A stretch of 64,000 nt of DNA from positions 1 through 64,000 of the forward strand of contig QJJF01000013.1 of assembly GCA_003202005.1 (NCBI GenBank), in the 5' to 3' direction. Below, one piece after another: positions 3,847 to 47,587 of this stretch. Numbering within the stretch: the stretch's first letter is position 1; each line of letters opens with the position of its first letter. The stretch is from Williamsia faeni. GTDB lineage: Bacteria > Actinomycetota > Actinomycetes > Mycobacteriales > Mycobacteriaceae. Both the position numbers and the translations under genes were made by a program. The notes below the pieces were generated by a model that was given only the letters and a program-made list of their open reading frames with translations, ran no database searches and had not been told where the DNA came from.

Positions 3847-4410
3847 TTACGTAGCGAAGACTTCGGTGTGCCGGCTGCCGTCGAGCGAAATGGTGCCGAC
3901 TGCTTCCAACGCTCTGTTCTTGAATGCCTTTGCCGCGATACTCATTCGGTACTCGCGAAGTCGTGGACGGTCGATGGTTTTCAGGTCACCCCACAGCAAG
4001 AAGTCTGCGGCCGCGCAGTCGAACCGCCTCGACAACACTTCCGGGAGTTCTTGTCGTGCACGAAATAGATCCGCCTGCCCCATGACAGCATCAACCGTCA
4101 GATCGTCGCCTGGCAGCGACGATCTGTACGTACTCAACGTGCGTTTCGAGTCCAGATCGAGCACGCGGGCCCCGAGGATCTGAAGTGCCCGACATCCCGC
4201 GTTTGCCGGAGCAATCACGGTGACATCCCAACCCGCGATTCCGTAATCGAAGAGAAACCCCCCGGCATGTTGCACAATTTCGGCCACGCTCGTTCCGACT
4301 ACTGCGATCCGGTACCGACGGCAATTCTTACGGTCGTTGCCACGGGCACGAATGATTTCGGTGTGGGTGGCGATGCCTGCGTCAACAACTTCCAGCCTTC
4401 GAGCTTCCAT
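3847..4410 (-). CDS. uncharacterised protein, paralogue A of a three-copy family
   Basis: A 187-residue soluble protein that I do not recognise. It shares a core with the proteins at 8527-9144 and 9220-9723: YR(I/L)xVV, then HAGGFLFDYGIAGWDVTV, then RALQILGARVLDLD, and later LLWGD and AAKAFKNRAL. The pattern of alternating hydrophobic strands and glycines suggests an alpha/beta fold, which is inference. It is the last gene of the operon led by the Rieske-less oxygenase and starts 30 bases after the SDR stop. No catalytic motif or membrane segment is visible. Confidence 0.75.
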   Translation of the reverse strand: MEARRLEVVDAGIATHTEIIRARGNDRKNCRRYRIAVVGTSVAEIVQHAGGFLFDYGIAGWDVTVIAPANAGCRALQILGARVLDLDSKRTLSTYRSSLPGDDLTVDAVMGQADLFRARQELPEVLSRRFDCAAADFLLWGDLKTIDRPRLREYRMSIAAKAFKNRALEAVGTISLDGSRHTEVFAT

Positions 4411-4440: not shown

Positions 4441-5151
4441 CTATGTGTTTCGGCCGCCGTTGACTCCCAGGATCTGCCCGGTGATGTAGCTCGCATCGTC
4501 GGAGATCAGGAACGCGCAGGCGGCGGCGATGTCCTCGGGTTTGCCGACGCGGCGTACCGGTGTCCGCAGGATGTGGTCTTCGATGGTCCCACCGAGACGA
4601 TTGAGTTCCTCGTCGCGGCGTAGCAATGGCGTGTCCACGAAACCGGGCGGGACCGCATTGACCGTGATACCGACTTGACCGAGTTCGAGAGCCAGCGACT
4701 TGGTCAGTCCGTTGATCGCGGACTTGGCGGCCACATAATGGGCCATGTAGGGCTGGCCTGCATGCGCACTTGACGACGAGATGTTGACGATCCGGCCCCA
4801 CTTGGCCTTCAGCATGTCCGGTAACACGGCTTGGATGCAGTGGTAGGTGCCGTGCAGATTGACGTCTATGACCTTCTGCCACGCATCGAAGTCGATGTCC
4901 ACGAACCGTGCGTTACCGACGATGCCGGCGGAGTTCACGAGAATGGTGATGGGGCCGAGGTCTTCGCGGATCGCGCCCAGTACGGTGTCGATCTGCTCGC
5001 GACTGGTGACGTCGACCGTGTATGCATTCTTCTCCTCGCTGGGAGTCCGATCGAGGGTGGCGACGTTGTAGCCTTCGGCGGTCAGACGCTGCGCGATCGC
5101 CTGACCGATGCCGGAGCCACCGCCGGTGACAACCGCAGTTTTCACGCCCAT
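4441..5151 (-). CDS. SDR family oxidoreductase (FabG-like)
   Basis: A 236-residue classical short-chain dehydrogenase. It has the coenzyme motif TGGGSGIGQAIA (about residues 9-20), NSAGIVG, the catalytic serine in VNISSSSAHAG, and the Y-x3-K pair in HYVAAKSAING. The C-terminus YITGQILGVNGG is typical. It overlaps the end of the TauD-like gene by 10 bases, so translation is probably coupled. It likely interconverts a hydroxyl and a keto group on the product of the upstream oxygenases. Confidence 0.9.
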   Translation of the reverse strand: MGVKTAVVTGGGSGIGQAIAQRLTAEGYNVATLDRTPSEEKNAYTVDVTSREQIDTVLGAIREDLGPITILVNSAGIVGNARFVDIDFDAWQKVIDVNLHGTYHCIQAVLPDMLKAKWGRIVNISSSSAHAGQPYMAHYVAAKSAINGLTKSLALELGQVGITVNAVPPGFVDTPLLRRDEELNRLGGTIEDHILRTPVRRVGKPEDIAAACAFLISDDASYITGQILGVNGGRNT

Positions 5152-5978
5152 GGTTCGCTCCCTGCAATGGTCGTCCGTTTCATCGTTCGTTCCGATGTCG
5201 GGTCGTAGGGCAGGGCTCGGTGCAGCATTCCGGTGTTGTCCCAGATCACAACATCACCAACCTTCCAGTTGTGGGTATAAACGAACTGCTCCCGGGTCGA
5301 CCAGGCGAGAAGTTCGTCAAGGAGTTCGCGGCTTTCCTGCGGTCGCATGCCGACGATGTGATCTGCCGTGGCCCCGATCGCCAGGGACCGGCGCCCGTCC
5401 GCGCGATTCCAGACCAAAGACGTTTCGTGAGTGGGCTGGGAACGCCAGGCAGCGATCTGCTTGTCGCTGGGATCCGGGTAAACGAGTCGTTGTGAAGCCT
5501 CGAAACTATGCACGACCCGTAATCCGTCATAGCGTTTGCGGTCATGCTCAGGCAGGCTCTCGTACGCGACGTACGTGCTCGCGAACTCTGTCCCGCCACC
5601 GACCATCGCAACGTGGCGGGCGGTGAGCATGGTCGCTTTCGCCGGCACATCGTTGGTGGTGTCGTCGATGTGCCAGTTGAACGTTCCCTTGAGATACTCG
5701 GCCATCGAATTCTTGGCTGGATCAAGGGAGACGGTGAAGATCTTCTTCCCAACCGGAGCGAGTACCTCGCCGAGTTTGCCGCTGAATGCGATCTGCTGCT
5801 CGTCGTCGAGATCGAGTCCACGGATCAGCAAGACGCCACGCCATTTGAGTGCCTCCAGGCAACGGGCGGCCACCAGGTCGTCCGTCAAATCGTCGACCCC
5901 AGAAACCTCGACTCCCAATGCCGGCGTCAGTGCCGTGGTCTGCATCCCGGAATGGAGATGTCGATCGGATAAACCCAT
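5142..5978 (-). CDS. TauD/TfdA-family Fe(II)/2-oxoglutarate dioxygenase
   Basis: A 278-residue protein of the TauD family. The iron ligands fit H-x-D in NWHIDDTTND and a distal His in LHRALPYDP near the C-terminus, with a downstream Arg (SERTMKRT) for 2-oxoglutarate. The start at 5978 (MGLSDRH) follows a purine-rich stretch; the open frame extends further but only into the neighbouring gene. It probably hydroxylates an unactivated carbon. Together with the adjacent oxygenase homologue it makes this an oxygenation operon; the substrate is unknown. Confidence 0.85.
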   Translation of the reverse strand: MGLSDRHLHSGMQTTALTPALGVEVSGVDDLTDDLVAARCLEALKWRGVLLIRGLDLDDEQQIAFSGKLGEVLAPVGKKIFTVSLDPAKNSMAEYLKGTFNWHIDDTTNDVPAKATMLTARHVAMVGGGTEFASTYVAYESLPEHDRKRYDGLRVVHSFEASQRLVYPDPSDKQIAAWRSQPTHETSLVWNRADGRRSLAIGATADHIVGMRPQESRELLDELLAWSTREQFVYTHNWKVGDVVIWDNTGMLHRALPYDPTSERTMKRTTIAGSEPWA

Positions 5979-6018
5979 GGTGCGAAAGACCTTTCGGCAC
6001 AGTATGCGTATCTGGTTG

Positions 6019-6369
6019 TCAGGGAACGGGTTCGATGACGGCGTCCATGCTTGAGGCACCGGTGTCGGGGACGCGGGGCTGATGCCACGCCTCGATGGGA
6101 AACGACACATTGATCAACGAATACGTCAGCAGCAGAAGCTTATACGCATCGTCGGGAAGGTCATCGAGTGGAAAATTGTCAAGGTAGACAGCGGCGTCAC
6201 CAAGGCGCGGGAAGGCAACATCGTAGAATGCCTGCAACTCGACCATCGTGCTCGAGAGTCGTTTTGCGTAGCGTTCACCTTCTGATTGCAGCGCCCAGTC
6301 GGCAAACGGTTCGAGATCGGCGAAGGCAGCGGGAAGTACGTTGGACACGTTCGTCTCTCCTGTGATCAT
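6019..6369 (-). CDS. small partner protein of the oxygenase (copy 1)
   Basis: A 116-residue acidic, largely helical protein with no recognised domain. It is clearly homologous to the 108-residue protein at 24733-25059: both share FADLE-x-F-x-DW, ERYAKRL, FYD, DLP and the C-terminal block VSFPIE-x-W-x-QPRV. In both loci the gene directly follows an oxygenase alpha-subunit gene. Here the stop and start overlap by one base (TAATG). It is much shorter than the usual beta subunits and lacks their typical fold signature, so a dedicated accessory or chaperone role is possible but unproven. Confidence 0.75.
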   Translation of the reverse strand: MITGETNVSNVLPAAFADLEPFADWALQSEGERYAKRLSSTMVELQAFYDVAFPRLGDAAVYLDNFPLDDLPDDAYKLLLLTYSLINVSFPIEAWHQPRVPDTGASSMDAVIEPVP

Positions 6370-7550
6370 TACTGATTGGCCGCTGAGAATGACGTTTCCT
6401 CCGAGCGACTTCGGACATCCTCGACAAAGCGGCGCGCCGAGGTATGCAAGTGCCGGAGCAGCACTTCCTGATCGCAGAGCGGGAACTCGCTAACAGTTCT
6501 CGTCTCGAGCATGGTCTGGGTGGCTTCAAGGGTGTTGCAGTCCTGGAGGCCGAACTCCTTGAACGTGACCGCAGCCATTTCCTGTCGCATCCGGTCAGAG
6601 GGCGTCTTGGGTGGCGCCATGTACAGCGTTCCCTCGAAGATGTGTTCGTTGTAGGCAGTGGGCCAGTAGTGATACGTCAGGTACCAGCCCGGTTCCCACA
6701 CGACGATCATGAAGTTCGGGAAGAAGACATACGAATCCAGTCCCCAAGAGCGGTGCTTGGTCGGATTGAGTCCTGAGGGGAGCGTCGCGAGCTCGGAAAT
6801 GTCCGGCTTGTCCCATGGCCCGAAGTTTCCGCTCCGCAGAACACGTTCGGTCGGCTTGACCATCATCGGATCCTTGGGCGGTGCCATGCCGCCCCACGAA
6901 GACACCATGCCGTGAGGACCGTCGATGTCATAGTGCAGCGCTTCGAATCCATAGCTCATCAGCTTGACCGACTCGTCGGACACATACTGTTTCGCATGCA
7001 GCACCGGCGCGTGATAGAACTCGGCAAACGCGTCGATGTAGAGCTTCCAGTTGCTGCGCACATGCGACTGGAACTTGTAGACGTGCGTCAGCTTGTCGAA
7101 GGGATACCCCGTCATACCGGCTGCGAACTTGCCGAGGAAATCGGCCAGCGGCTTGGTGTTGTCCTGGTCGAAGTTGACGAAGACAAACCCTTCCCAGACA
7201 TCTACTTGCAGTGGGGTCAAACCAGATTCGAGGTTCTCGAAGTCAAAAGTATCGTGCTGCAGAAACGCGGGCCGGCCGTGGAGTGCGTAGCTCCAGGCGC
7301 GCATTTCTCCGCTGTGATCTGCGGCGATCACCACCGATGAGCGGACCGCATCGATCGGCTTGATGAAGAACGCGCCGACCGCCGGAGCCTGTTCGACCCG
7401 CCCGACATTGAGCCACGAATGCCCGAAGACGGCCTCGCGTTCGACCTCGAAGTACTCCGGGCTGATCGAGTCGTCGTACGACATCGGACCGGTGTCGAGA
7501 CCGAAATGCTCGGTCCAACTTCCTTCTGGTGGTTTCGGAAAATGTGCCAT
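6369..7550 (-). CDS. Rieske-less ring-hydroxylating oxygenase alpha-subunit homologue
   Basis: A 393-residue homologue of the intact oxygenase at 23481-24752, aligned along its whole length from MAHF to near the C-terminus. It lacks, in frame, the roughly 35 residues that carry C-x-H and C-x2-H of the Rieske [2Fe-2S] cluster. The sequence runs from SGEMRAW directly into SYALHG. The mononuclear iron site is kept: DAFAEFYHAPVLH (Asp173, His180, His185) and Asp337 in LQDCNTLEATQ. The start at 7550 matches the paralogue and has GAAGGA upstream; the open frame extends to 7643. First gene of its operon, divergent from a TetR gene. Confidence 0.85.
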   Translation of the reverse strand: MAHFPKPPEGSWTEHFGLDTGPMSYDDSISPEYFEVEREAVFGHSWLNVGRVEQAPAVGAFFIKPIDAVRSSVVIAADHSGEMRAWSYALHGRPAFLQHDTFDFENLESGLTPLQVDVWEGFVFVNFDQDNTKPLADFLGKFAAGMTGYPFDKLTHVYKFQSHVRSNWKLYIDAFAEFYHAPVLHAKQYVSDESVKLMSYGFEALHYDIDGPHGMVSSWGGMAPPKDPMMVKPTERVLRSGNFGPWDKPDISELATLPSGLNPTKHRSWGLDSYVFFPNFMIVVWEPGWYLTYHYWPTAYNEHIFEGTLYMAPPKTPSDRMRQEMAAVTFKEFGLQDCNTLEATQTMLETRTVSEFPLCDQEVLLRHLHTSARRFVEDVRSRSEETSFSAANQ

Positions 7551-7735: not shown

Positions 7736-8317
7736 ATGAGTCAGCAGGGTGTGAAGCGAGAACGAAGCGATGCGGCTCGCAATCGACGCGCCATTCTCGA
7801 TACGACGGACCTTTTACTTTCACAACACGGTGCCGGCAACATCTCCATCGATCAGATCGCAGCTGCCGCGGGTGTCGGCAAAGGCACGATCTTTCACCGC
7901 TTCGGTAGTCGCGCGGGGCTGATGAGAGCGCTGGTGGTCGAACGCGCGGAGATACTTCGCCAGGCCGTGATCGACGGACCGCCCCCATTGGGTCCGGGCG
8001 CCCCGGCCGCCACCAGACTCCTGGCCTTCTTTGATGCCATGTTCGAGCTGATCGTGGACAACGTCGAGCTGATGATCGCGTACGACAACGCGACCACAAA
8101 TACACAGGCGGACGAGATCAACGCGTTCTGGCATCGTCACATCGCACAGTTACTGAGCGAGGCCAGGCCAGAAGTCGATGCCGCGATCATGGCGCAAGTA
8201 CTGCTGAGCACTCTCAACCCCGATGTCGTCCTTCACCAAATTCGGACCGATCACACCGCGCGTCTCGCGGCAGCTGTACATAGTGTTATCAAATCAGTTG
8301 TCGCACAAGATGACTGA
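7736..8317 (+). CDS. TetR/AcrR family transcriptional regulator
   Basis: A 193-residue TetR protein. The N-terminal helix-turn-helix is at about residues 30-60 (ISIDQIAAAAGVGKGTIFHRF). The C-terminal ligand domain is divergent, as usual. It is divergent from the Rieske-less oxygenase operon and the 185-bp gap contains two related dyads, so it probably represses that operon and itself. Paralogue B of the unknown family follows on the same strand. The inducer is unknown. Confidence 0.9.
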   Translation: MSQQGVKRERSDAARNRRAILDTTDLLLSQHGAGNISIDQIAAAAGVGKGTIFHRFGSRAGLMRALVVERAEILRQAVIDGPPPLGPGAPAATRLLAFFDAMFELIVDNVELMIAYDNATTNTQADEINAFWHRHIAQLLSEARPEVDAAIMAQVLLSTLNPDVVLHQIRTDHTARLAAAVHSVIKSVVAQDD

Positions 8318-8526
8318 CTGCTCACTGCACCGCCGGTGAGCGCTCAGACCGCGACTCGCCGGCAACCAGGCTCGTGTCCGACACGATTGAACAGATAGCC
8401 ACCACATGTACAACTGCCATCGAATCTGCGAATCCGCGACCATAAATGCACTCCCCGGTCACAATGTTCTTTGTGAGCGGAGCAGCCAAATGGCCCACAC
8501 CGTCGTCGGAACCTGGCCGGGCAACA

Positions 8527-9144
8527 ATGATGGTGGTCCCGGACTTCGCCACCACTGATCAGCTGGTCGACGCGGCGCGGTTGGTGAATCAGGAACGCCT
8601 GCAAGCTCGGACTCGAGATCTGCCGTACCGGCTCGTGGTCCTCGGTACCGACACCACTGACCTCGTCAAACACGCCGGCGGCCTGCTGTTCGACCACATC
8701 ATGGCCGGCTGGTGTGTCACCGTCCTGGTTCCACCCGAGGCCGATCCACGTCCACTGCAGATACTCGGCACCCGGGTGTTCGACCTGAATACGGCCCTCG
8801 CGATGGACCTCATGCCCGCACTCGCATCGCGGCGCCGCAGCCCGTGGCCGCACAAGGTGGTGCTCGCAGGTGACCTGTGCGCCCGCGACGACCGGCTACA
8901 CGATGCTGTTCGGCACTCGTTCGACCACGGTGACACCAACACCATGCTGTGGGGTCCGCAGCGGCACTCAGTCAACGACAACGACGTCGTACCCGTCGAA
9001 CATCAGCTCAGCAGAGCTGCTCGCGCATTCAAATCGCACGCCCTCGCTGCAACGTCGGCCACTGTCGCAGACGTCGCCCCCGTCGAGTACTTCACGGGCA
9101 ACACGGTGCGCACCTCGGCGCCGCCGGCTCTTCACCTCACCTGA
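8527..9144 (+). CDS. uncharacterised protein, paralogue B of a three-copy family
   Basis: A protein of about 205 residues with the same core as the proteins at 3847-4410 and 9220-9723: PYRLVVLG, KHAGGLLFDHIMAGWCVTV, LQILGTRVFDL, AGDLCARDDR, MLWG and AARAFKSHALAA. The start is uncertain. The open frame begins at 8446, but alignment with paralogue A favours the ATG at 8527. It has a longer C-terminal tail than paralogue C. It follows the TetR gene at 7736 on the same strand after about 0.2 kb in which I see nothing else. No function is recognised. Confidence 0.7.
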   Translation: MMVVPDFATTDQLVDAARLVNQERLQARTRDLPYRLVVLGTDTTDLVKHAGGLLFDHIMAGWCVTVLVPPEADPRPLQILGTRVFDLNTALAMDLMPALASRRRSPWPHKVVLAGDLCARDDRLHDAVRHSFDHGDTNTMLWGPQRHSVNDNDVVPVEHQLSRAARAFKSHALAATSATVADVAPVEYFTGNTVRTSAPPALHLT

Positions 9145-9168
9145 TCAGCCCTAGACCAACGGAAACAA

Positions 9169-9200
9169 CTGTGCCCCAACACTATTGCGCTGGGGAACAG
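9169..9200. terminator. hairpin between convergent genes
   Basis: CTGTGCCCCA pairs with TGGGGAACAG (9 of 10 positions) around a 12-base loop, in the 75-bp gap between the convergent paralogues B and C. It is probably a bidirectional terminator. Confidence 0.45.
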
Positions 9201-9219
9201 ATGAAGTTCGATGCGGATG

Positions 9220-9723
9220 TCAGGCCGGAACGAGGTCTGAGAGACCGTCCCACGACTTCGACCTGCTGCAACGGAACACCTCGGCGAGACCAGCGGAGTC
9301 GGTGGGCAACGAAGCTGCTGCAAGTGCCTGCGCCTTGAAGGCCCGGGCAGCCACGCTGAGGCGGTGCCGCACCATTCCGATCCGGCTGTCGAGCTCATCC
9401 GGCAGGCTGTCGCCCCAGAGGGTCACCTCGGTTTCACCTTCCCCCAGGATCCGCTGCACTCCCTCGCGCACCCGATCGTCGCGCTCGTACAGCGATCCTG
9501 CGGTAACCACCGCCTGCGGGTGGAAACCGAATCCACGCCACTCGAATCCCGACTCGAAGTCGACTGTTTGCGCACCGAGAATCTGCAGGGCTCGAGCGGT
9601 CGGATCGTCCTGCACGAGCACCGTGACGTCCCAGCCGGCCATGCCGCGGTCGAACACCAGGCCGCCGGCGTATTTGATGACTTCGTTCGCCGTGGGGGCG
9701 ACAACCACCAAGCGGTACCTCAT
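9220..9723 (-). CDS. uncharacterised protein, paralogue C of a three-copy family
   Basis: A 167-residue protein, the shortest of the family. It begins directly with the conserved strand MRYRLVVVAP, followed by KYAGGLVFDRGMAGWDVTV, RALQILGAQTVDF, AGSLYERDDR, LWGD and SVAARAFKAQALAA. The ATG at 9723 overlaps the TGA of the upstream TetR gene as ATGA, so the two are translationally coupled. A longer open frame to 9813 would only overlap the TetR gene. Coupling to a regulator suggests a signalling or sensing role, which is inference. Confidence 0.75.
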   Translation of the reverse strand: MRYRLVVVAPTANEVIKYAGGLVFDRGMAGWDVTVLVQDDPTARALQILGAQTVDFESGFEWRGFGFHPQAVVTAGSLYERDDRVREGVQRILGEGETEVTLWGDSLPDELDSRIGMVRHRLSVAARAFKAQALAAASLPTDSAGLAEVFRCSRSKSWDGLSDLVPA

Positions 9724-10325
9724 GAGTTCGTCATCGGTGCGAAGTCCTTCGCCAGCGACCTTGCGTACTCCCTGAACACGTCCGTGAGAGGAATTGATTG
9801 ATCCAGCAGCCATGATGTTTCCATCCCGTTGAGAAAGGCGACTATTTCGACGGCCTTCAAATCCGCATCGAAGTCCGAACGGTATCTGCCATCGACCTGC
9901 CCGCGCCGGATACCAGCGGCAACGGTGTCAATTGATGCGTGATACCTGGCCAGCAGGCGATCATGCAGCGGCGCATCGGGTTCGAGGTTCTCCATCTGGA
10001 GAACCGCGAACGTACCGACAAGTTCCGGTGATCGTTCGAATCGCTCGGCGACCTTCACGATCCCTTCCAACAGATCGCCCTGGCGATCCGCATGTTGGTC
10101 GTCGTCCGCATCTCGCATTTCGAGTACCGCATGCAAAAGCTGTGCTTTGGACTCGAAATGGTGGAGCAGACCGGCGGAGGTGACACCGGCTTCGGAAGCG
10201 ATCTGCGACAGAGTCGTATTGCGCCAGCCGTTACGGGTGAGCAACCGTTGAGCGACGTCGAGAATCTGTCGCTTGCGCTCCTCGCCTTTGACGAGGAGAG
10301 CTTCGTACGGCCGTTCGCTTGCCAC
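9720..10325 (-). CDS. TetR/AcrR family transcriptional regulator
   Basis: A 201-residue TetR protein with HTH TTLSQIASEAGVTSAGLLHHF (about residues 37-57). The start is a GTG at 10325 with GAAGGAG five bases upstream. It is coupled to paralogue C by ATGA. Upstream, at about 10335-10373, there are several GGTT/AACC elements, including CCAAC and GTTGG in inverted order, which may be its own operator. It belongs to neither neighbouring enzyme operon by strand coupling, so its targets are unclear. Confidence 0.9.
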   Translation of the reverse strand: MASERPYEALLVKGEERKRQILDVAQRLLTRNGWRNTTLSQIASEAGVTSAGLLHHFESKAQLLHAVLEMRDADDDQHADRQGDLLEGIVKVAERFERSPELVGTFAVLQMENLEPDAPLHDRLLARYHASIDTVAAGIRRGQVDGRYRSDFDADLKAVEIVAFLNGMETSWLLDQSIPLTDVFREYARSLAKDFAPMTNS

Positions 10326-10418
10326 TGATCTCCTTCAACCGATCAACCAACTGAACCGATAGTAGGTTGGATTCTCCGCTGTGACAAGTGTCTCCCCGAA
10401 ATTCAGGTGGGGCTCAGG

Positions 10419-11567
10419 TCACAAGCCGAGTGATTTGGCGATGATCACCTTCATGACTTCGCTGGTACCTGCGTAAATGCGAGCCACACGGGCGTCGACG
10501 TAGAGCCTCGCGATCGGGTACTCGGCCATGTAGCCGTAGCCGCCGAACAGCTGCAGGCACCGGTCGACGACCCGCGCCTGGACCTCGGTGCAGAAGAGTT
10601 TCACCCGCGCGGCGTCCGGACCCGACAGCTCGTCGTCCACCAGATCCAGCACGGCCCGGTCGACCATCGCCTGTCCGGCTTCGACCTCGGCCGACATGGC
10701 CGCGAGTTCGAACTTCGTGTTCTGGAACGACGCGACGGGCGTACCGAACGCTTTGCGTTCTTTCACGTAGTCGACGGTGGTGGCAATGGCCGCCCGCGCC
10801 TGGGCGATCGAGCCGACCGCGACCGTGATGCGTTCCTGGGCGAGGTTCCGGCCGAGGTATCCGAATGCCTTGCCTTCCTCACCGAGCAGGTTCGACACCG
10901 GTACCCGGACGTTGTCGAACGACAATTCGACGGTGTCCTGGACTTTGCAACCCATCTTGTCGAGCACACGGCCGCGCTCGAAACCGGGCATCCCGTTCTC
11001 GACCACCAGCAGCGACAGCCCGCCGCGACGGTTGTCGGGGTCGGTGGACGTCCGGGCGAGCACGATCACCAGGTCGGCGAGCAATCCGCCGGTGATGAAT
11101 GTCTTGGCGCCGTTCAGCACGTATTCGTCGCCCTCGAGGACGGCGTTGGTGCTGACGCCGGCGAGGTCAGAACCGGTGCCGGGTTCGGTCATCGCGATTG
11201 CCGACAGCAAGGTGCCCTTGGCGAGGCCGGGGAACCAACGGCCGCGCTGCTCTTCGTTGGCGTACTCGAGGAAGTACGGCAGGATGACGTCGAGCTGCGT
11301 CCGGACGGTGCTCAGGGTAACCAGAGCGCGTGCCGCCTCCTCCTGGAGGATGACGTTGTAGCGGTAGTCGCGCAGGCCGGCGCCGCCGAACTCTTCGGGG
11401 ATGGCGATCCCCAGCATGCCCAGCGAACCGAGCTCGGCGAAGATCTCGCGCGGCATCTGCCCGACCTTCTCCCAGGCCGCATAATCCGGAACGATGCGCT
11501 TGCTGATGAAATCGCGGGCCAGGGCCCGGAATTCCTCATGGTCTTCGGTGAATACTTCGCGCCTCAT
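10419..11567 (-). CDS. acyl-CoA dehydrogenase
   Basis: A 382-residue ACAD with the standard three-part layout. The FAD/substrate motifs are AMTEPGTGSDLAG and TFITGG, and the C-terminal segment is IYAGTSEVMKVIIAKSLGL. The position that is Glu in medium-chain ACADs (YEGT) is Ala here, so the catalytic base may lie elsewhere, as in isovaleryl/long-chain types. The start at 11567 has GAGAGAGG upstream; the longer frame to 11633 overlaps the thiolase gene. Last gene of the six-gene operon from 16725. Confidence 0.9.
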   Translation of the reverse strand: MRREVFTEDHEEFRALARDFISKRIVPDYAAWEKVGQMPREIFAELGSLGMLGIAIPEEFGGAGLRDYRYNVILQEEAARALVTLSTVRTQLDVILPYFLEYANEEQRGRWFPGLAKGTLLSAIAMTEPGTGSDLAGVSTNAVLEGDEYVLNGAKTFITGGLLADLVIVLARTSTDPDNRRGGLSLLVVENGMPGFERGRVLDKMGCKVQDTVELSFDNVRVPVSNLLGEEGKAFGYLGRNLAQERITVAVGSIAQARAAIATTVDYVKERKAFGTPVASFQNTKFELAAMSAEVEAGQAMVDRAVLDLVDDELSGPDAARVKLFCTEVQARVVDRCLQLFGGYGYMAEYPIARLYVDARVARIYAGTSEVMKVIIAKSLGL

Positions 11568-11581
11568 GTTCAATACCTCTC

Positions 11582-12727
11582 TCAGGAAACCAGTTCGACC
11601 AGCGTGGCGTTGGCAGTGCCGCCGCCCTCGCACATGGTCTGCAGTCCGTACCGAATTCCGTTGTCGCGCATGTGGTTGATCATGCGGGTCATCAGCACCG
11701 CGCCCGAGCCTCCGAGCGGATGGCCCAGAGCGATCGCGCCACCCAACGGGTTGAGCAGGGCCGGATCGGCACCTGTCTCCGCTAGCCAGGCCATCGGGAC
11801 CGGCGCGAAGGCCTCGTTCACCTCGAACACCCCGACCTCGGACAGCTTCACGCCGGCCTTGGCGAGCACCTTGGCAGTTGCCGGGATCGGACCGGTGAGC
11901 ATGAGGACCGGGTCGTCGCCGACCACAGCACCCGCGGTGTAGCGCACCAACGGCTTGAGCCCGAGCTCTTTTGCCCGTTCCGGGGTCATCACCAGCAGGG
12001 CGGCTGCGCCATCGGAGATCTGCGAGGAGTTGCCGGCGTGGATCACACCGTCTTCGGCGAAAGCGGGCTTGAGGTTTGCGAGCTTTTCGACCGTGCTCCC
12101 CCGGCGGATACCTTCATCGGCGGTGACCACGCCGTCTTCGGTCTCGACGGCGACGATCTGGGATTCGAATGCACCGGCGTCCTGTGCAATGGCGGCCCGC
12201 TCGTGCGACAGCACGGAGAACTCGTCGACCGCAGTCCGGTCGTAGCCCCACTTCTGCGCGATCTTCTCGGCCGAGATTCCCTGGTTGAAGGCGAAACCTT
12301 CATAGCGGCCAAGCGCTTTGGGCCCGTACGGTGCACCGGTGGACCGAGCCGCGCCCAGTGGCACCCGACTCATCACCTCGACGCCACCGGCGACAACCAC
12401 ATCCTGCTGACCCGACATGACGGCCTGCACTGCGAAGTCCAGTGCCTGCTGGCTCGATCCGCAGGCACGGTTGATCGTGACACCGGGGATGGATTCGGGC
12501 CACCCCGCGGCGAGCACCGAGTACCGACCGACGTTGCTGGACTGGTCGCCGACCTGCGAAACACAGCCCCACACAACATCATCGATGATCTCGGGGTTGA
12601 CACCGCTGCGCTCGACCAGCGCGTTCAGTACATGCGCCGACAGGTCAACAGGGTGGACACCTGCCAATCCGCCGTTCCGCTTTCCGACTGGCGTACGAAC
12701 AGCCTCGACGATTACAACTTCGCGCAT
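11582..12727 (-). CDS. thiolase family protein (acetyl-CoA acyltransferase)
   Basis: A 381-residue thiolase. The nucleophilic cysteine is in NRACGSSQQAL (about residue 89). The second-half motifs NEAFAPVPMAW, GHPLGGSG and MCEGGGTANA supply the catalytic His and Cys. It should carry out the final thiolytic cleavage in the operon. Its ATG directly abuts the stop of the hydratase gene, so the two are co-translated. Confidence 0.92.
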   Translation of the reverse strand: MREVVIVEAVRTPVGKRNGGLAGVHPVDLSAHVLNALVERSGVNPEIIDDVVWGCVSQVGDQSSNVGRYSVLAAGWPESIPGVTINRACGSSQQALDFAVQAVMSGQQDVVVAGGVEVMSRVPLGAARSTGAPYGPKALGRYEGFAFNQGISAEKIAQKWGYDRTAVDEFSVLSHERAAIAQDAGAFESQIVAVETEDGVVTADEGIRRGSTVEKLANLKPAFAEDGVIHAGNSSQISDGAAALLVMTPERAKELGLKPLVRYTAGAVVGDDPVLMLTGPIPATAKVLAKAGVKLSEVGVFEVNEAFAPVPMAWLAETGADPALLNPLGGAIALGHPLGGSGAVLMTRMINHMRDNGIRYGLQTMCEGGGTANATLVELVS

Positions 12728-23480: not shown

Positions 23481-24752
23481 ATGGCCCACTTCAAGAAACC
23501 AGCTGCAGGCAGCTGGACGGAGCATTGGCCGGAGCTCGGTACCGAGCCGGTCGATTACTCCGACTCCACCGATCCCGAGTTCTACCAGGCCGAGATCGAC
23601 GCCATCTTCAGAAAGAAGTGGGTCAACATCGGACGAGTGGAGACCATCCCCAAGAAGGGAAACTTCTTCACCCGTGAGATCGCCGCACTCGGCACCTCAC
23701 TGATCATCGTTCGCGACTCCAACCTCGAGGTTCGCGCATTCCACAACGTGTGCCGCCACCGCGGTAACAAGCTGGTCTGGAACGACTTCCCGAACGAAGA
23801 GACCTCGGGTACCTGCCGCCAGTTCACCTGCAAGTACCACGCCTGGCGCTACAGCCTCGAAGGCGACCTGACGTACGTGCAGCAGGAAGGCGAGTTCTTC
23901 GACCTGGACAAGAACCAGTACGGACTTGTCTCCGTGCGCTGTGAGGTCTGGGAAGGCTTCATCTGGGTCAACATGGATGACAACGCCGGGCCACTGACCG
24001 ACTACCTGGGCCGCTTCGCCAAGGGTGTCGAAGGCTACCCGTTCGGTGAGATGACCGAGGTCTACAGCTACAAGTCGACGATCAACAGCAACTGGAAGCT
24101 GTTCATCGACGCTTTCGCCGAGTTCTACCACGCACCGGTGCTGCACCAGAAGCAGGCCACCAAGGAAGAAGCCGAAAAGCTTCTCCACTTCGGCTTCGAG
24201 GCCCTGCACTACGACCTCGACACCCCGCACTCGATGATCTCCAGCTGGGGAGGCATGTCGCCGCCCAAGGACGAGAGCATGGTCAAGCCCATCGAGCGGA
24301 AGCTCCGCAGTGGCCTCTTCGGTCCCTGGGATCGCCCCGACATCGAAGGTCTCGACCCGTTGCCGGCCGGCATCAACCCCGCCGGTGCAAAGCCCTGGGG
24401 CGTCGACGAGTTCGAGTTCTTCCCGAACATGTCGCTGCTGTTCTGGGCGCCGGGCTGGTACCTCACGTACCACTACTGGCCCACCGCGGTGAACCAGCAC
24501 GTCTTCGAGGCCAACCTGTACTTCGTCCCGGCCAAGACCTGCCGCGAACGGCTTGCACAGGAACTCGCCGCAGTCACGTTCAAGGAGTACGCGTTCCAGG
24601 ACGCCAACACCCTCGAAGCAACGCAGACGATGCTCGCCACCAAGACGGTCAGCGAGTTCCCGCTCTGCGATCAGGAAATCCTCCTCCGCCACCTCCACAA
24701 AGTGGTCAAAGATGAAGTAAGGGAGCACAAAAATGCCGCAGCTACCAGCTGA
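23481..24752 (+). CDS. Rieske non-haem iron oxygenase, alpha subunit
   Basis: A 423-residue ring-hydroxylating-type oxygenase. The Rieske cluster ligands are Cys91 and His93 (VCRHRG) and Cys117 and His120 (CKYHAW). The mononuclear iron site is Asp210, His217 and His222 (IDAFAEFYHAPVLH), with Asp374 in FQDANTLEATQ. It hydroxylates an unknown substrate using electrons from a reductase; the flavin/[2Fe-2S] protein at 46571 is the best candidate in the window. No normal beta subunit is present; the small gene that follows is specific to this family. Confidence 0.92.
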   Translation: MAHFKKPAAGSWTEHWPELGTEPVDYSDSTDPEFYQAEIDAIFRKKWVNIGRVETIPKKGNFFTREIAALGTSLIIVRDSNLEVRAFHNVCRHRGNKLVWNDFPNEETSGTCRQFTCKYHAWRYSLEGDLTYVQQEGEFFDLDKNQYGLVSVRCEVWEGFIWVNMDDNAGPLTDYLGRFAKGVEGYPFGEMTEVYSYKSTINSNWKLFIDAFAEFYHAPVLHQKQATKEEAEKLLHFGFEALHYDLDTPHSMISSWGGMSPPKDESMVKPIERKLRSGLFGPWDRPDIEGLDPLPAGINPAGAKPWGVDEFEFFPNMSLLFWAPGWYLTYHYWPTAVNQHVFEANLYFVPAKTCRERLAQELAAVTFKEYAFQDANTLEATQTMLATKTVSEFPLCDQEILLRHLHKVVKDEVREHKNAAATS

Positions 24753-25059
24753 TTTCGCCGACCTCGAGAAGTTCTCGGACTGGATCCTGGCCACCGAGCA
24801 GGAACGTTACGCGAAGCGCCTCGAGACGAGCATGGACGACATGCAGGTGTTCTACGACGCCGGCATGGACAAGATGGACGCCGCGCTGGACCATCTCGAC
24901 AAGTTCGACCTGTACGACCTGCCGGAACCCGAGCGGGCACTGATGTACCTGATGCAGTCGGTCGTCATGGTGTCCTTCCCGATCGAGGTCTGGAAGCAGC
25001 CCCGCGTGCTCGACAGCGGTGCAGCCTGGGTCGAGACCGTGAAGCAGCCGGTGTTCTGA
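24733..25059 (+). CDS. small partner protein of the Rieske oxygenase (copy 2)
   Basis: A 108-residue acidic helical protein homologous to the one at 6019-6369 (shared FADLE, ERYAKRL, FYD, VSFPIE-x-W-x-QPRV). It overlaps the end of the oxygenase gene by 20 bases and has AAGGGAG upstream of its ATG. It has no cysteine or histidine cluster for metal binding. Strict pairing with an oxygenase gene in two loci argues for a structural or accessory role with the oxygenase. Not a recognised family. Confidence 0.78.
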   Translation: MPQLPADFADLEKFSDWILATEQERYAKRLETSMDDMQVFYDAGMDKMDAALDHLDKFDLYDLPEPERALMYLMQSVVMVSFPIEVWKQPRVLDSGAAWVETVKQPVF

Positions 25060-25060
25060 T

Positions 25061-26272
25061 ATGCAAACACTCGTAGCGGCGGGCCTACTCGACATCGATT
25101 CCGGTGAAATCGTTCGACCCGGAGTGATCCGGATCGACGGTGAACGGATTGTTGGTATAGGAGGAACTCCAGAAGGCGAAATCACCGATCTCGGTGACCT
25201 CATCCTCGTCCCAGGTTTCATGGACATGGAGGTCAACCTGCTCATGGGAGGTCGCGGCGAAAAGCCCGTCACCTCAATGGTTCAGGATGATCCGCCGCTA
25301 CGAATGTTGCGTGCGGTGGGTAACTCCCGCCGTACGCTGCGGGCCGGTTTCACGACCGTCCGCAACCTCGGTCTGTTCGTCAAGACCGGTGGTTATCTTC
25401 TCGACGTCGCACTCGGCCGGGCAATTGACGCCGGCTGGGTCGACGGGCCCCGGATCGTTCCGGCCGGCCACGCGATCACCCCTACCGGTGGACACCTCGA
25501 TCCCACGATGTTTGCGGCCTTCATGCCCGGCGTCCTCGAGCTGACCATCGAAGAGGGCATCGCCAACGGTGTCGATGAGGTCGTCAAGGCCGTTCGATAC
25601 CAGATCAAGCACGGCGCCCAGCTCATCAAGGTCTGTGTCTCCGGCGGAGTCATGTCCCACACCGGAACCGCAGGCGCCCAGCACTATTCGTTCGATGAAC
25701 TCTGCGCGATCGTCGACGAGGCGCACCGCCGTGGACTGCGGGTCGCCTCGCACACCCATGGCGCCGAAGCAGTCAAGAACGCCATCAAGGCCGGAATCGA
25801 CTGCATCGAGCACGGATTCCTCGTCGACGACGAAGCGATCCAGATGATGGTCGACAACGGGACGTTCCTCGTCCCCACGACCCGGTTGATCGACGGCATG
25901 GACATCTCGCATGCCCCCGATGAACTGAAAGACAAAGCGGCCATCATGTTCCCGCAGGCCCGCATCTCGGTGAAGAAGGCCTATGAAGCGGGCGTGAAGA
26001 TCGCCGTCGGTACGGATGCACCCGCGATCCCGCACGGCAAGAACGCTGACGAACTGGTTGCCCTGGTCGACCGCGGCATGAGTCCCATCGCGGTATTGCG
26101 TGCAGCCACCATCGTAGCCGCCGACCTGATCAACGTCACCGACCGCGGCCGGCTCGCCGAAGGTCTGCTCGCAGACATCGTCGGCGTGCCCGGAGATCCC
26201 ACCGAAGACATCACCGTCACACAGGATGTGCGGTTCGTGATGAAAGGCGGCAAGATTTATGTCAACAAATGA
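25061..26272 (+). CDS. amidohydrolase-superfamily protein with altered HxH motif
   Basis: A 403-residue protein of the metal-dependent hydrolase class near imidazolonepropionase/prolidase-type enzymes. The usual PGxIDxHxH metal motif reads PGFMDMEVN, so both histidines are replaced by Glu57 and Asn59. Later ligands look kept: Lys in LIKVCVSGG, His in ASHTHG, His in IEHGFL, and Asp in GTDAPAI. It follows the partner gene by one base. It may hydrolyse a lactone or amide of the oxygenation product, or work with a single metal. Function is uncertain. Confidence 0.82.
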   Translation: MQTLVAAGLLDIDSGEIVRPGVIRIDGERIVGIGGTPEGEITDLGDLILVPGFMDMEVNLLMGGRGEKPVTSMVQDDPPLRMLRAVGNSRRTLRAGFTTVRNLGLFVKTGGYLLDVALGRAIDAGWVDGPRIVPAGHAITPTGGHLDPTMFAAFMPGVLELTIEEGIANGVDEVVKAVRYQIKHGAQLIKVCVSGGVMSHTGTAGAQHYSFDELCAIVDEAHRRGLRVASHTHGAEAVKNAIKAGIDCIEHGFLVDDEAIQMMVDNGTFLVPTTRLIDGMDISHAPDELKDKAAIMFPQARISVKKAYEAGVKIAVGTDAPAIPHGKNADELVALVDRGMSPIAVLRAATIVAADLINVTDRGRLAEGLLADIVGVPGDPTEDITVTQDVRFVMKGGKIYVNK

Positions 26273-46570: not shown

Positions 46571-47587
46571 ATGGCGAGGCCCCCACATTTCCAGCGCGCA
46601 ACCGTGACGAGGATCGTCAAGGAGACCGCTGACGCCCGTACATATGTGCTTGCGCCGCTCGAAGCACCAATCACCTACCGCGCCGGTCAGTTCATCACTT
46701 TCAGGGTGCATGTCGACGGCGAAGAGCTGTATCGCTCGTACTCGATGTCGAGTGCCCCCGAAACCGACTCCGAGCTGATGACCACCGTCAAGCGCATCCC
46801 CGGTGGCAAGGTCTCGAACTGGATGCACGACAACATCAGCGAGGGTGACGAGGTCGAGATCACCCGGGCCGCCGGCCTGTTCTGCCTGAGCGAAACGTCC
46901 GCTCCGCTACTCGGTTTTGCCGGTGGCAGCGGCATCACGCCCATCCTGTCGCTGACCAAGAGCGCACTCAAGTCCACCGATCGACAGGTCCGCCTCCTGT
47001 GCGCAGACCGGGATCCGGCGTCCGCGATCTTCCACGCCGCCATCGACGAGTTGGCCGCCCAGTACCCAGATCGCCTCTCCGTGGTGCGCAGCTTCGATGT
47101 CACAGACGGATTCCTCGATGTCCAGAAGGTTCTCGATTTCATCGGTGACGACGTCGATGCCGACAGCTACCTCTGCGGACCCGACCCCTTCATGGATGTC
47201 ATCACGTCCGCGGTACCCGGCCCCGGCCGGATCATCGCCGAAGAGTTCGGCACGGCCCATCACGTCCCCGAGGCCGAGCACGTGGTCGAGATCGTCGATG
47301 CCCCCATCGAACTGGGCACCGTGTACATCCAGCTCGGACGCAAGAAAGTCGAGATCGACCGGAAGGCCGGCGAAACGATCCTCGAAAGCGCACGCCGTGC
47401 CGGCCTCTCGCCGCCGTTCTCCTGCGAATCGGGCAACTGCGCAACCTGCATCGGCGAGGTTCTCGAGGGCAGCGCCACCATGCGCGCCAACAACGCACTC
47501 GACGACGACGAGGTTGCTGAAGGAATGGTGCTGACCTGCCAGGCGGTCCCGGACACCTCATCGATCAAGGTGCGTTACGAGAACTAG
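46571..47587 (+). CDS. oxygenase reductase with FAD, NAD(P) and C-terminal [2Fe-2S] domains
   Basis: A 338-residue reductase of the ferredoxin-NADP reductase type. It has the FAD motif RSYSMSSAP (about residues 57-65), NAD motifs GGSGITPILS and CGPDPFMD, and a plant-type [2Fe-2S] ferredoxin at the C-terminus (SCESGNCATC plus LTC). The order matches KshB and PaaE. AAGGAGG precedes the ATG. Sharing the operator with the Rieske operon, it is the likely electron donor for the oxygenase at 23481. A terminator follows. Confidence 0.92.
   Translation: MARPPHFQRATVTRIVKETADARTYVLAPLEAPITYRAGQFITFRVHVDGEELYRSYSMSSAPETDSELMTTVKRIPGGKVSNWMHDNISEGDEVEITRAAGLFCLSETSAPLLGFAGGSGITPILSLTKSALKSTDRQVRLLCADRDPASAIFHAAIDELAAQYPDRLSVVRSFDVTDGFLDVQKVLDFIGDDVDADSYLCGPDPFMDVITSAVPGPGRIIAEEFGTAHHVPEAEHVVEIVDAPIELGTVYIQLGRKKVEIDRKAGETILESARRAGLSPPFSCESGNCATCIGEVLEGSATMRANNALDDDEVAEGMVLTCQAVPDTSSIKVRYEN

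Follow-up and report, generated by a model that had tools for sequence, protein, structure and literature searches.

How a Rieske-type oxygenase alpha subunit without its Rieske cluster could be maintained, and from where its mononuclear iron would then receive electrons, are questions raised by a gene at 6369..7550 (−) in the 64,000-nucleotide stretch of Williamsia faeni DNA analyzed here (the window). Structures and mutants have established that electrons pass between the subunits of Rieske oxygenases: according to published structural accounts, the iron receives them from the adjacent subunit's cluster, ~12 Å away, and not from the cluster of its own subunit at ~44–45 Å (PMC12445004, PMC7948474). 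The YeaW and CntA papers describe a glutamate bridging an Fe-binding histidine and a Rieske histidine of the neighbouring subunit (PMC7948474, PMC9508527), and in CntA this residue is reported to serve intersubunit electron transfer, its mutants being inactive (PMC7948474).

The gene at 6369..7550 (−) encodes 393 aa plus a stop codon (alpha′ hereafter), and re-examination of its open reading frame, strand and junction confirmed the description given in an earlier note. Global alignment with the intact oxygenase encoded at 23481..24752 (+) (423 aa) yields 220 identities and 165 mismatches (57%), a single 35-residue internal gap and 11 other gap positions. This gap covers residues 87–121 of the 23481 protein and removes C91, H93, C117 and H120, so that the in-frame skip of the C91-x-H93 and C117-x2-H120 motifs within an otherwise end-to-end alignment is as first described. 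At the junction, codons A85–W86 (7293..7298, (−)), alpha′ reads EMRA(85)-W(86)SYALHG; both flanks of the gap can still be aligned to an intact Rieske domain, and the cluster-holding part is gone. Accordingly, Pfam reports Ring_hydroxyl_A (PF00848; 1.8e-34) and no Rieske domain in alpha′, while the 23481 protein matches both. As the only two cysteines left (338 and 359) both lie in the catalytic domain, alpha′ is devoid of any Rieske-like Cys/His motif.

The iron site presents a different picture. Alignment places the Fe ligands H180 at 7011–7013, H185 at 6996..6998 and D337 at 6540..6542, and the bridging glutamate position E177 at 7020–7022, all on the (−) strand, and these four residues as well as D173 are invariant in a 47-row alignment. 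The persistence of His180, His185, Asp173 and Asp337 is thereby upheld; D173, listed in the earlier note as the acidic residue, is however not the bridge, a position taken by E177, which aligns with the glutamate of the CntA motif MECYH (E205 in CntA, E208 in YeaW). As judged from these alignments, it is well supported that alpha′ has lost the Rieske cluster and retained the mononuclear iron site, and, as a defining feature, the cluster, is missing, the protein does not qualify as a complete Rieske oxygenase. A match to the catalytic domain alone is, as a general warning, not equivalent to a complete Rieske oxygenase.

A public-genome scan for alpha′ relatives gave 53 loci. Before rows were counted, duplicates of the same gene (L001, L066, L067, L068, L069, L072, L002, L007, L082, L003 and L005) were dropped, as were fragments or broken contigs (L063, L049, L062) and distant hits (L009, L010). 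The deletion is also found in Aldersonia sp. NBC_00410, Rhodococcus globerulus and R. phenolicus (87, 77 and 67% best-segment identity, respectively). Among 401 genomes of the same family, ten match at E 1e-132, four with an intact and six with a Rieske-less protein, the latter being the window genome (G000), Aldersonia (G051), R. globerulus (G184), R. phenolicus (G034) and G204 and G145, which represent two further species in the genus of R. phenolicus. The loss is hence common to six species of four genera, and within the R. phenolicus genus it is found in 3 of 18 genomes. At a stricter cut-off, two of the six were recovered among 397 genomes of the order, a set overlapping the former one, and no match was obtained in a plasmid collection at E 1e-60.

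The Rieske-less proteins differ in length, with 393 aa in the window and in Aldersonia (gap of 35), 365 aa in R. globerulus and 378–379 aa in the R. phenolicus group, the gap being wider in the latter four species. In a catalytic-domain tree of 79 rows, the Rieske-less proteins fall in a single clade (support 99/98) nested within a 17-row clade (99/96) that also holds 11 intact alphas. Since the six rows group together, the excision would most simply represent a single event, followed by further erosion. A strain-specific deletion or pseudogene is ruled out by the conserved orthologues in six species, and the outcome that would have spoken against the earlier note, a deletion unique to this strain with decay in relatives, did not materialize: six species share it, with purifying selection on the catalytic half (see below). 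No report of this Rieske-less alpha clade was found in the open-licence literature, a coverage in which subscription journals mostly do not figure.

The course of selection along the protein was followed at positions that the window protein has and that are ≥95% fixed across 69 intact rows; L064 (a near copy of L065) was dropped, and three degenerate rows were treated separately. All six Rieske-less rows keep 51 of the 52 fixed sites from residue 151 onwards (catalytic domain), as compared to 14/31 in the Rieske remnant (residues 30–150; Fisher 1.9e-8, or 4.6e-4 when ten changed sites with gaps, in four rows for nine of them and in two rows for the other, are removed). Resolved by stretch, retention amounts to 8/8 (residues 1–29), 7/11 (30–84) and 7/20 (85–150), and E177 is present in every Rieske-less row. 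The ratio of residue differences between stretches 30–112 and 113–380 ranges from 2.2 to 3.6 in five Rieske-less pairs, as opposed to 0.8–2.0 in nine intact pairs. Rough dN/dS estimates, dS being saturated or nearly so in some pairs, are 0.065–0.147 for residues 113–380 and 0.11–0.73 for residues 30–112 (one pair saturated) in seven Rieske-less pairs; the corresponding values in three intact pairs, whose first stretch includes the cluster part, are 0.24–0.35 and 0.31–0.41. The reading frame is open in all six species. The alpha′ gene is thus under selection and not decaying, and site retention, difference ratios and dN/dS together indicate that its catalytic half is maintained and its electron-entry half released from constraint.

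Directly after alpha′ lies a small companion gene (6019..6369, (−)), an open reading frame of 116 aa whose start, as judged by homology, is likely the GTG near 6348; it lacks a Pfam match and, in this copy, any cysteine. A relative of ~110 aa directly follows the Rieske-less alpha in all six genomes, and genes of this kind also come after the intact alpha at 23481 (24733..25059, (+)) and after numerous other intact ones. At the 11 sister rows with an intact alpha, no match was found, the locus L026 among them extending just 0.4 kb beyond the gene. None of 32 members has a Pfam match at E 0.01, the best PDB E-value is 0.45, and the family (6019–6369, 24733–25059 and 30 more sequences) is a candidate new small subunit. 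Further along the operon are a TauD/TfdA-type dioxygenase (5142..6017, (−), Pfam), of which an 88% identical copy adjoins the Aldersonia Rieske-less alpha, and a short-chain dehydrogenase (SDR; 4441..5151, (−), named by eye) with an 82% identical orthologue beside the R. globerulus one. A divergent TetR regulator (7736..8317, (+)) has relatives in G184 (76%) and G145 (68%) that likewise run divergently from the Rieske-less alpha. A literature search for the substrate of the cluster was without result.

The operon is in addition flanked by three related proteins of 187–232 aa, at 3847–4410 (−), 8446–9144 (+) and 9220–9813 (−), for which no Pfam or PADLOC match and, in one case, also no PDB match was obtained; a relative is found near the Aldersonia orthologue (L076:12434–13036).

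No second alpha is located inside the Rieske-less operon, nor was one seen near the 11 closest intact relatives, of the same clade, in the fetched loci. The intact alpha at 23481..24752 (+), which carries both Pfam domains, is the proposed electron donor. It is followed by its small companion and by an amidohydrolase (25061..26272, (+)) that served as a marker of the intact-alpha cluster; a reductase with FAD, NAD and plant-type [2Fe-2S] domains (46571..47587, (+), Pfam) is a candidate electron source for it. The marker is present in 6/6 Rieske-less genomes (83–100% identical) and in 98 of the 401 family genomes at E 1e-120, a coincidence with a chance probability of 1.9e-4, or 0.004 by genus, when relatedness is left uncorrected and the marker is assumed to lie beside an intact alpha across the 98.

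Three of the six genomes (G000, G051 and G034) show the orthologous intact alpha in full, at a distance from the Rieske-less gene of 16 kb in the window and ~68 kb in Aldersonia, and on another contig in R. phenolicus. In G145 it is a fragment, the contig starting inside the gene; in G184 and in G204 the sequence breaks off next to the amidohydrolase, with the end of the G204 contig falling in the small gene. Five of the six genomes have a complete intact alpha from the wider family (55% identity in G184, 47% in G145), and in G204 the Rieske-less protein was the sole family alpha detected, the next match being at 4.7e-39. The situation in G204 and G184 spoke against a pairing of both alphas before the contig breaks were considered. 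In two relatives, G258 and G057, the intact alpha and the small gene are duplicated, the copies (L207:3879–5458 and 10036–11615; L208:4652–6253 and 8767–10368, respectively) being 99.94% and 100% identical over 1.6 kb and 4–6 kb apart, and a 4.6-kb contig of G184 has the same gene content as the segment between the two G258 copies. On the basis of these duplications, the marker search and the position of the contig ends, the breaks in the Rieske-less genomes are probably collapsed repeats, and G184 and G204 would then be expected to carry the orthologous intact alpha as well.

Loss of the cluster is also encountered in relatives with a pair of alphas, A and B, in a single gene cluster, contig C25 of the window genome being one case. 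Of 371 family genomes searched for each at E 1e-150, 48 had alpha-B-like and 81 alpha-A-like matches, and the Rieske ligands were read in the best 30 of each, a selection biased to the queries, which are themselves degenerate. Among these best-ranked loci, alpha-B is non-canonical in 10/30 (C-H-C-C in three, C-H-C-S in one, C-Q-C-C in two and C-R-C-C in four) and alpha-A in 1/30, namely the C25 copy (C-H-C-R with a two-residue insert); the remaining 49 of 60 are canonical, and all 60 retain the E-H-H-D iron site. The ten alpha-B genes with replaced ligands (C-x-H/R/Q ... C-x2-C/S) correspond to L147–L151 and L153–L157 (L111:14295–15554 being the same gene as L148), and nine of them share a contig with an alpha-A located 3.9–9.1 kb away. 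The partner is canonical in all 11 cases (alpha-A of the ten genomes, alpha-B of C25), which argues only weakly for a rule, since 29/30 of the alpha-A examined are canonical anyway.

The degenerate rows fall into two separate clades in the drawn 79-row catalytic-domain tree, for which an automated count of one change uses labelled rows only, and the degenerate label requires at least three changes on the two-alpha tree, two of them forced by the starred branches. Most simply, there would have been no fewer than three independent losses of the cluster, each sparing the iron site: by excision in the window clade, in alpha-B and in alpha-A.

On C25 itself (L081:2753–4024 and 9335–10591), the alpha-A motif is damaged (CRH...CKQRACGWRY), alpha-B being intact; between the two alphas lie relatives of the amidohydrolase, an FNR reductase and the SDR, and TauD relatives are found beside them. 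A C-x2-C-G-W pattern in nine degenerate alpha-B could bind another cluster or zinc.

Given that the iron is fed by the cluster of the neighbour, a cluster-less subunit can turn over if its neighbour in the ring is intact; among the residues that the accepting subunit requires is the bridging glutamate, present in all six. We therefore favour, with a probability of roughly 0.55, a reading in which alpha′ is a working catalytic subunit that has dispensed with a cluster-binding part of its own and is fed in trans by an intact alpha. Alpha′ and the intact alpha, most likely the 23481 protein, would form a mixed head-to-tail oligomer, the assembly of which the ~110-aa small partners may assist, and electrons from NAD(P)H would pass via a reductase to the intact alpha, enter its Rieske cluster and cross E177 to reach the alpha′ iron. 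Such feeding in trans predicts the pattern observed, with the receiving half frozen, the donating half eroding and an intact alpha available. The earlier note had left three options standing (another alpha subunit as donor, a different donor, or a non-redox role); the first is favoured by the retained bridging glutamate, the presence of the marker in 6/6 genomes and the related alphas that lose cluster ligands and not the iron site, the identity of the donor staying a matter of deduction. Mixed physical assembly, electron transfer in trans, catalysis and a substrate of alpha′ are all points that we infer. Against feeding in trans, the proposed partner lies outside the operon, its complete orthologue is seen in just three of the six genomes, the 11 closest intact relatives have no second alpha at their fetched loci, each genome has other Rieske proteins, and in the majority of the two-alpha clusters examined neither alpha has lost its cluster.

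In a second reading, the alpha′ iron would be fed not by an alpha but by the cluster of a separate Rieske ferredoxin, a Rieske-bearing reductase or the [2Fe-2S] domain of a docking reductase. A precedent is known experimentally in NdmC, a Rieske-less subunit whose missing cluster is described on the NdmD reductase (PMC4408171), and the operon without a second alpha would fit such an arrangement. Candidates are also at hand: each Rieske-less genome holds 15–22 Rieske matches, so that other donors are possible, with matches in open frames <300 aa in 6/6 genomes and 15–21 Fer2 matches in each. None of the six genomes, however, contains an open frame with both Rieske and Fer2 at the cut-offs used (tables compared by eye), so that no NdmD-like donor emerges from the Rieske and Fer2 inventories; within 10 kb of the Rieske-less alpha, family searches detected no Rieske match and a single Fer2 match, 9 kb away in G184. 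Moreover, YeaW K104, reported as a proposed docking lysine (6% activity in K104E), lies between the cluster ligands (PMC9508527), in a stretch that would correspond to the part deleted in alpha′. We consider a separate donor unlikely on this evidence.

One further frame was considered as a donor and rejected. On the contig of the Aldersonia orthologue, L102:5978–7399 (−) (G051, NBC_00410) encodes three tandem Rieske-type motifs (CPHxGC...CPCHGS, three times), but its start resembles, by eye, a twin-arginine (Tat) lipoprotein signal, so that the product is probably exported and thus an unlikely donor for a cytoplasmic enzyme.

Alternatively, alpha′ might serve no redox function and act as a regulatory, chaperone-like or substrate-delivering partner that binds iron or substrate, or as a non-oxidative catalyst. 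The TauD and SDR proteins of the operon could carry out the oxidative chemistry, and the relaxed constraint on the Rieske half would be accommodated. Such a role is nonetheless rather improbable in view of the iron triad, the bridging glutamate and the 51/52 fixed catalytic sites kept in six species, the glutamate in particular having no evident use unless electrons are delivered. The same residue would be left unexplained by a peroxide-driven or otherwise self-sufficient iron oxygenase in need of no external cluster, which we hold to be highly improbable even though H2O2-dependent turnover has been published for a Rieske oxygenase, benzoate 1,2-dioxygenase. A decaying gene or an assembly error, for which nothing speaks beyond the deletion itself, is hardly credible given the open frames of three lengths (393, 365 and 378–379 aa) in six species, the conserved small companion and the low dN/dS of the catalytic half.

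Extending the favoured reading, a catalytic alpha′ fed by an intact alpha, to the related two-alpha clusters, we tentatively propose that in actinobacterial alpha/alpha′ Rieske oxygenases one alpha can shed a redundant cluster, as may have happened on each of the at least three occasions discussed above, leading to half-wired oligomers in which one type of subunit acts as donor and catalyst and the other as catalyst only. Separate donor and acceptor subunits within one oligomer are rare in the literature covered. If mixed oligomers of this kind exist, they would be natural complexes with the donor cluster and the acceptor iron on separately mutable chains, and would allow a direct test of which Rieske cluster feeds which iron, how many clusters are needed per trimer and whether the second iron is idle.

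Several known systems share individual features with this proposal. NdmC, part of the NdmCDE caffeine N7-demethylase of Pseudomonas putida CBB5, is likewise described as a non-heme iron subunit without a Rieske domain, the cluster residing on another protein (PMC4408171). In contrast to NdmC, as compared by description, alpha′ has lost only the cluster-binding part, the rest of the Rieske domain remaining in place. The genetic context differs as well: unlike the Ndm system, with its Rieske-Fer2 fusion, the companion of alpha′ is a 110-aa protein without Pfam match, and none of the 20 window proteins scanned against Pfam, a subset of the window genes, resembles the GST-like partner NdmE.

Chlorophyllide a oxygenase (CAO) of Micromonas pusilla is reported to consist of two polypeptides and still to be active (PMC9615114). 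In comparison to this eukaryotic, biosynthetic enzyme, the proposed partner of alpha′ has both sites, the loss of one being confined to the second alpha. In the Micromonas enzyme, Kunugi in 2013 is said to have found the Rieske cluster on one chain and the iron site on the other.

Co-assembly of two different alphas is exemplified by the NdmA/NdmB alpha3-alpha′3 heterohexamer, according to its published description (PMC12445004), although both NdmA and NdmB are described as keeping their Rieske cluster (PMC4408171). The nearest solved relatives by sequence are the carnitine monooxygenases CntA/YeaW (alpha3; 6y9c, 6y8j), which have the bridging glutamate and the His-His-Asp triad in common with alpha′; their cluster is intact, however, and the family relation is distant. 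Overall, alpha′ differs from the NdmC, CAO and NdmA/NdmB precedents in combining a complete proposed partner with a second alpha from which only the cluster part has been excised.
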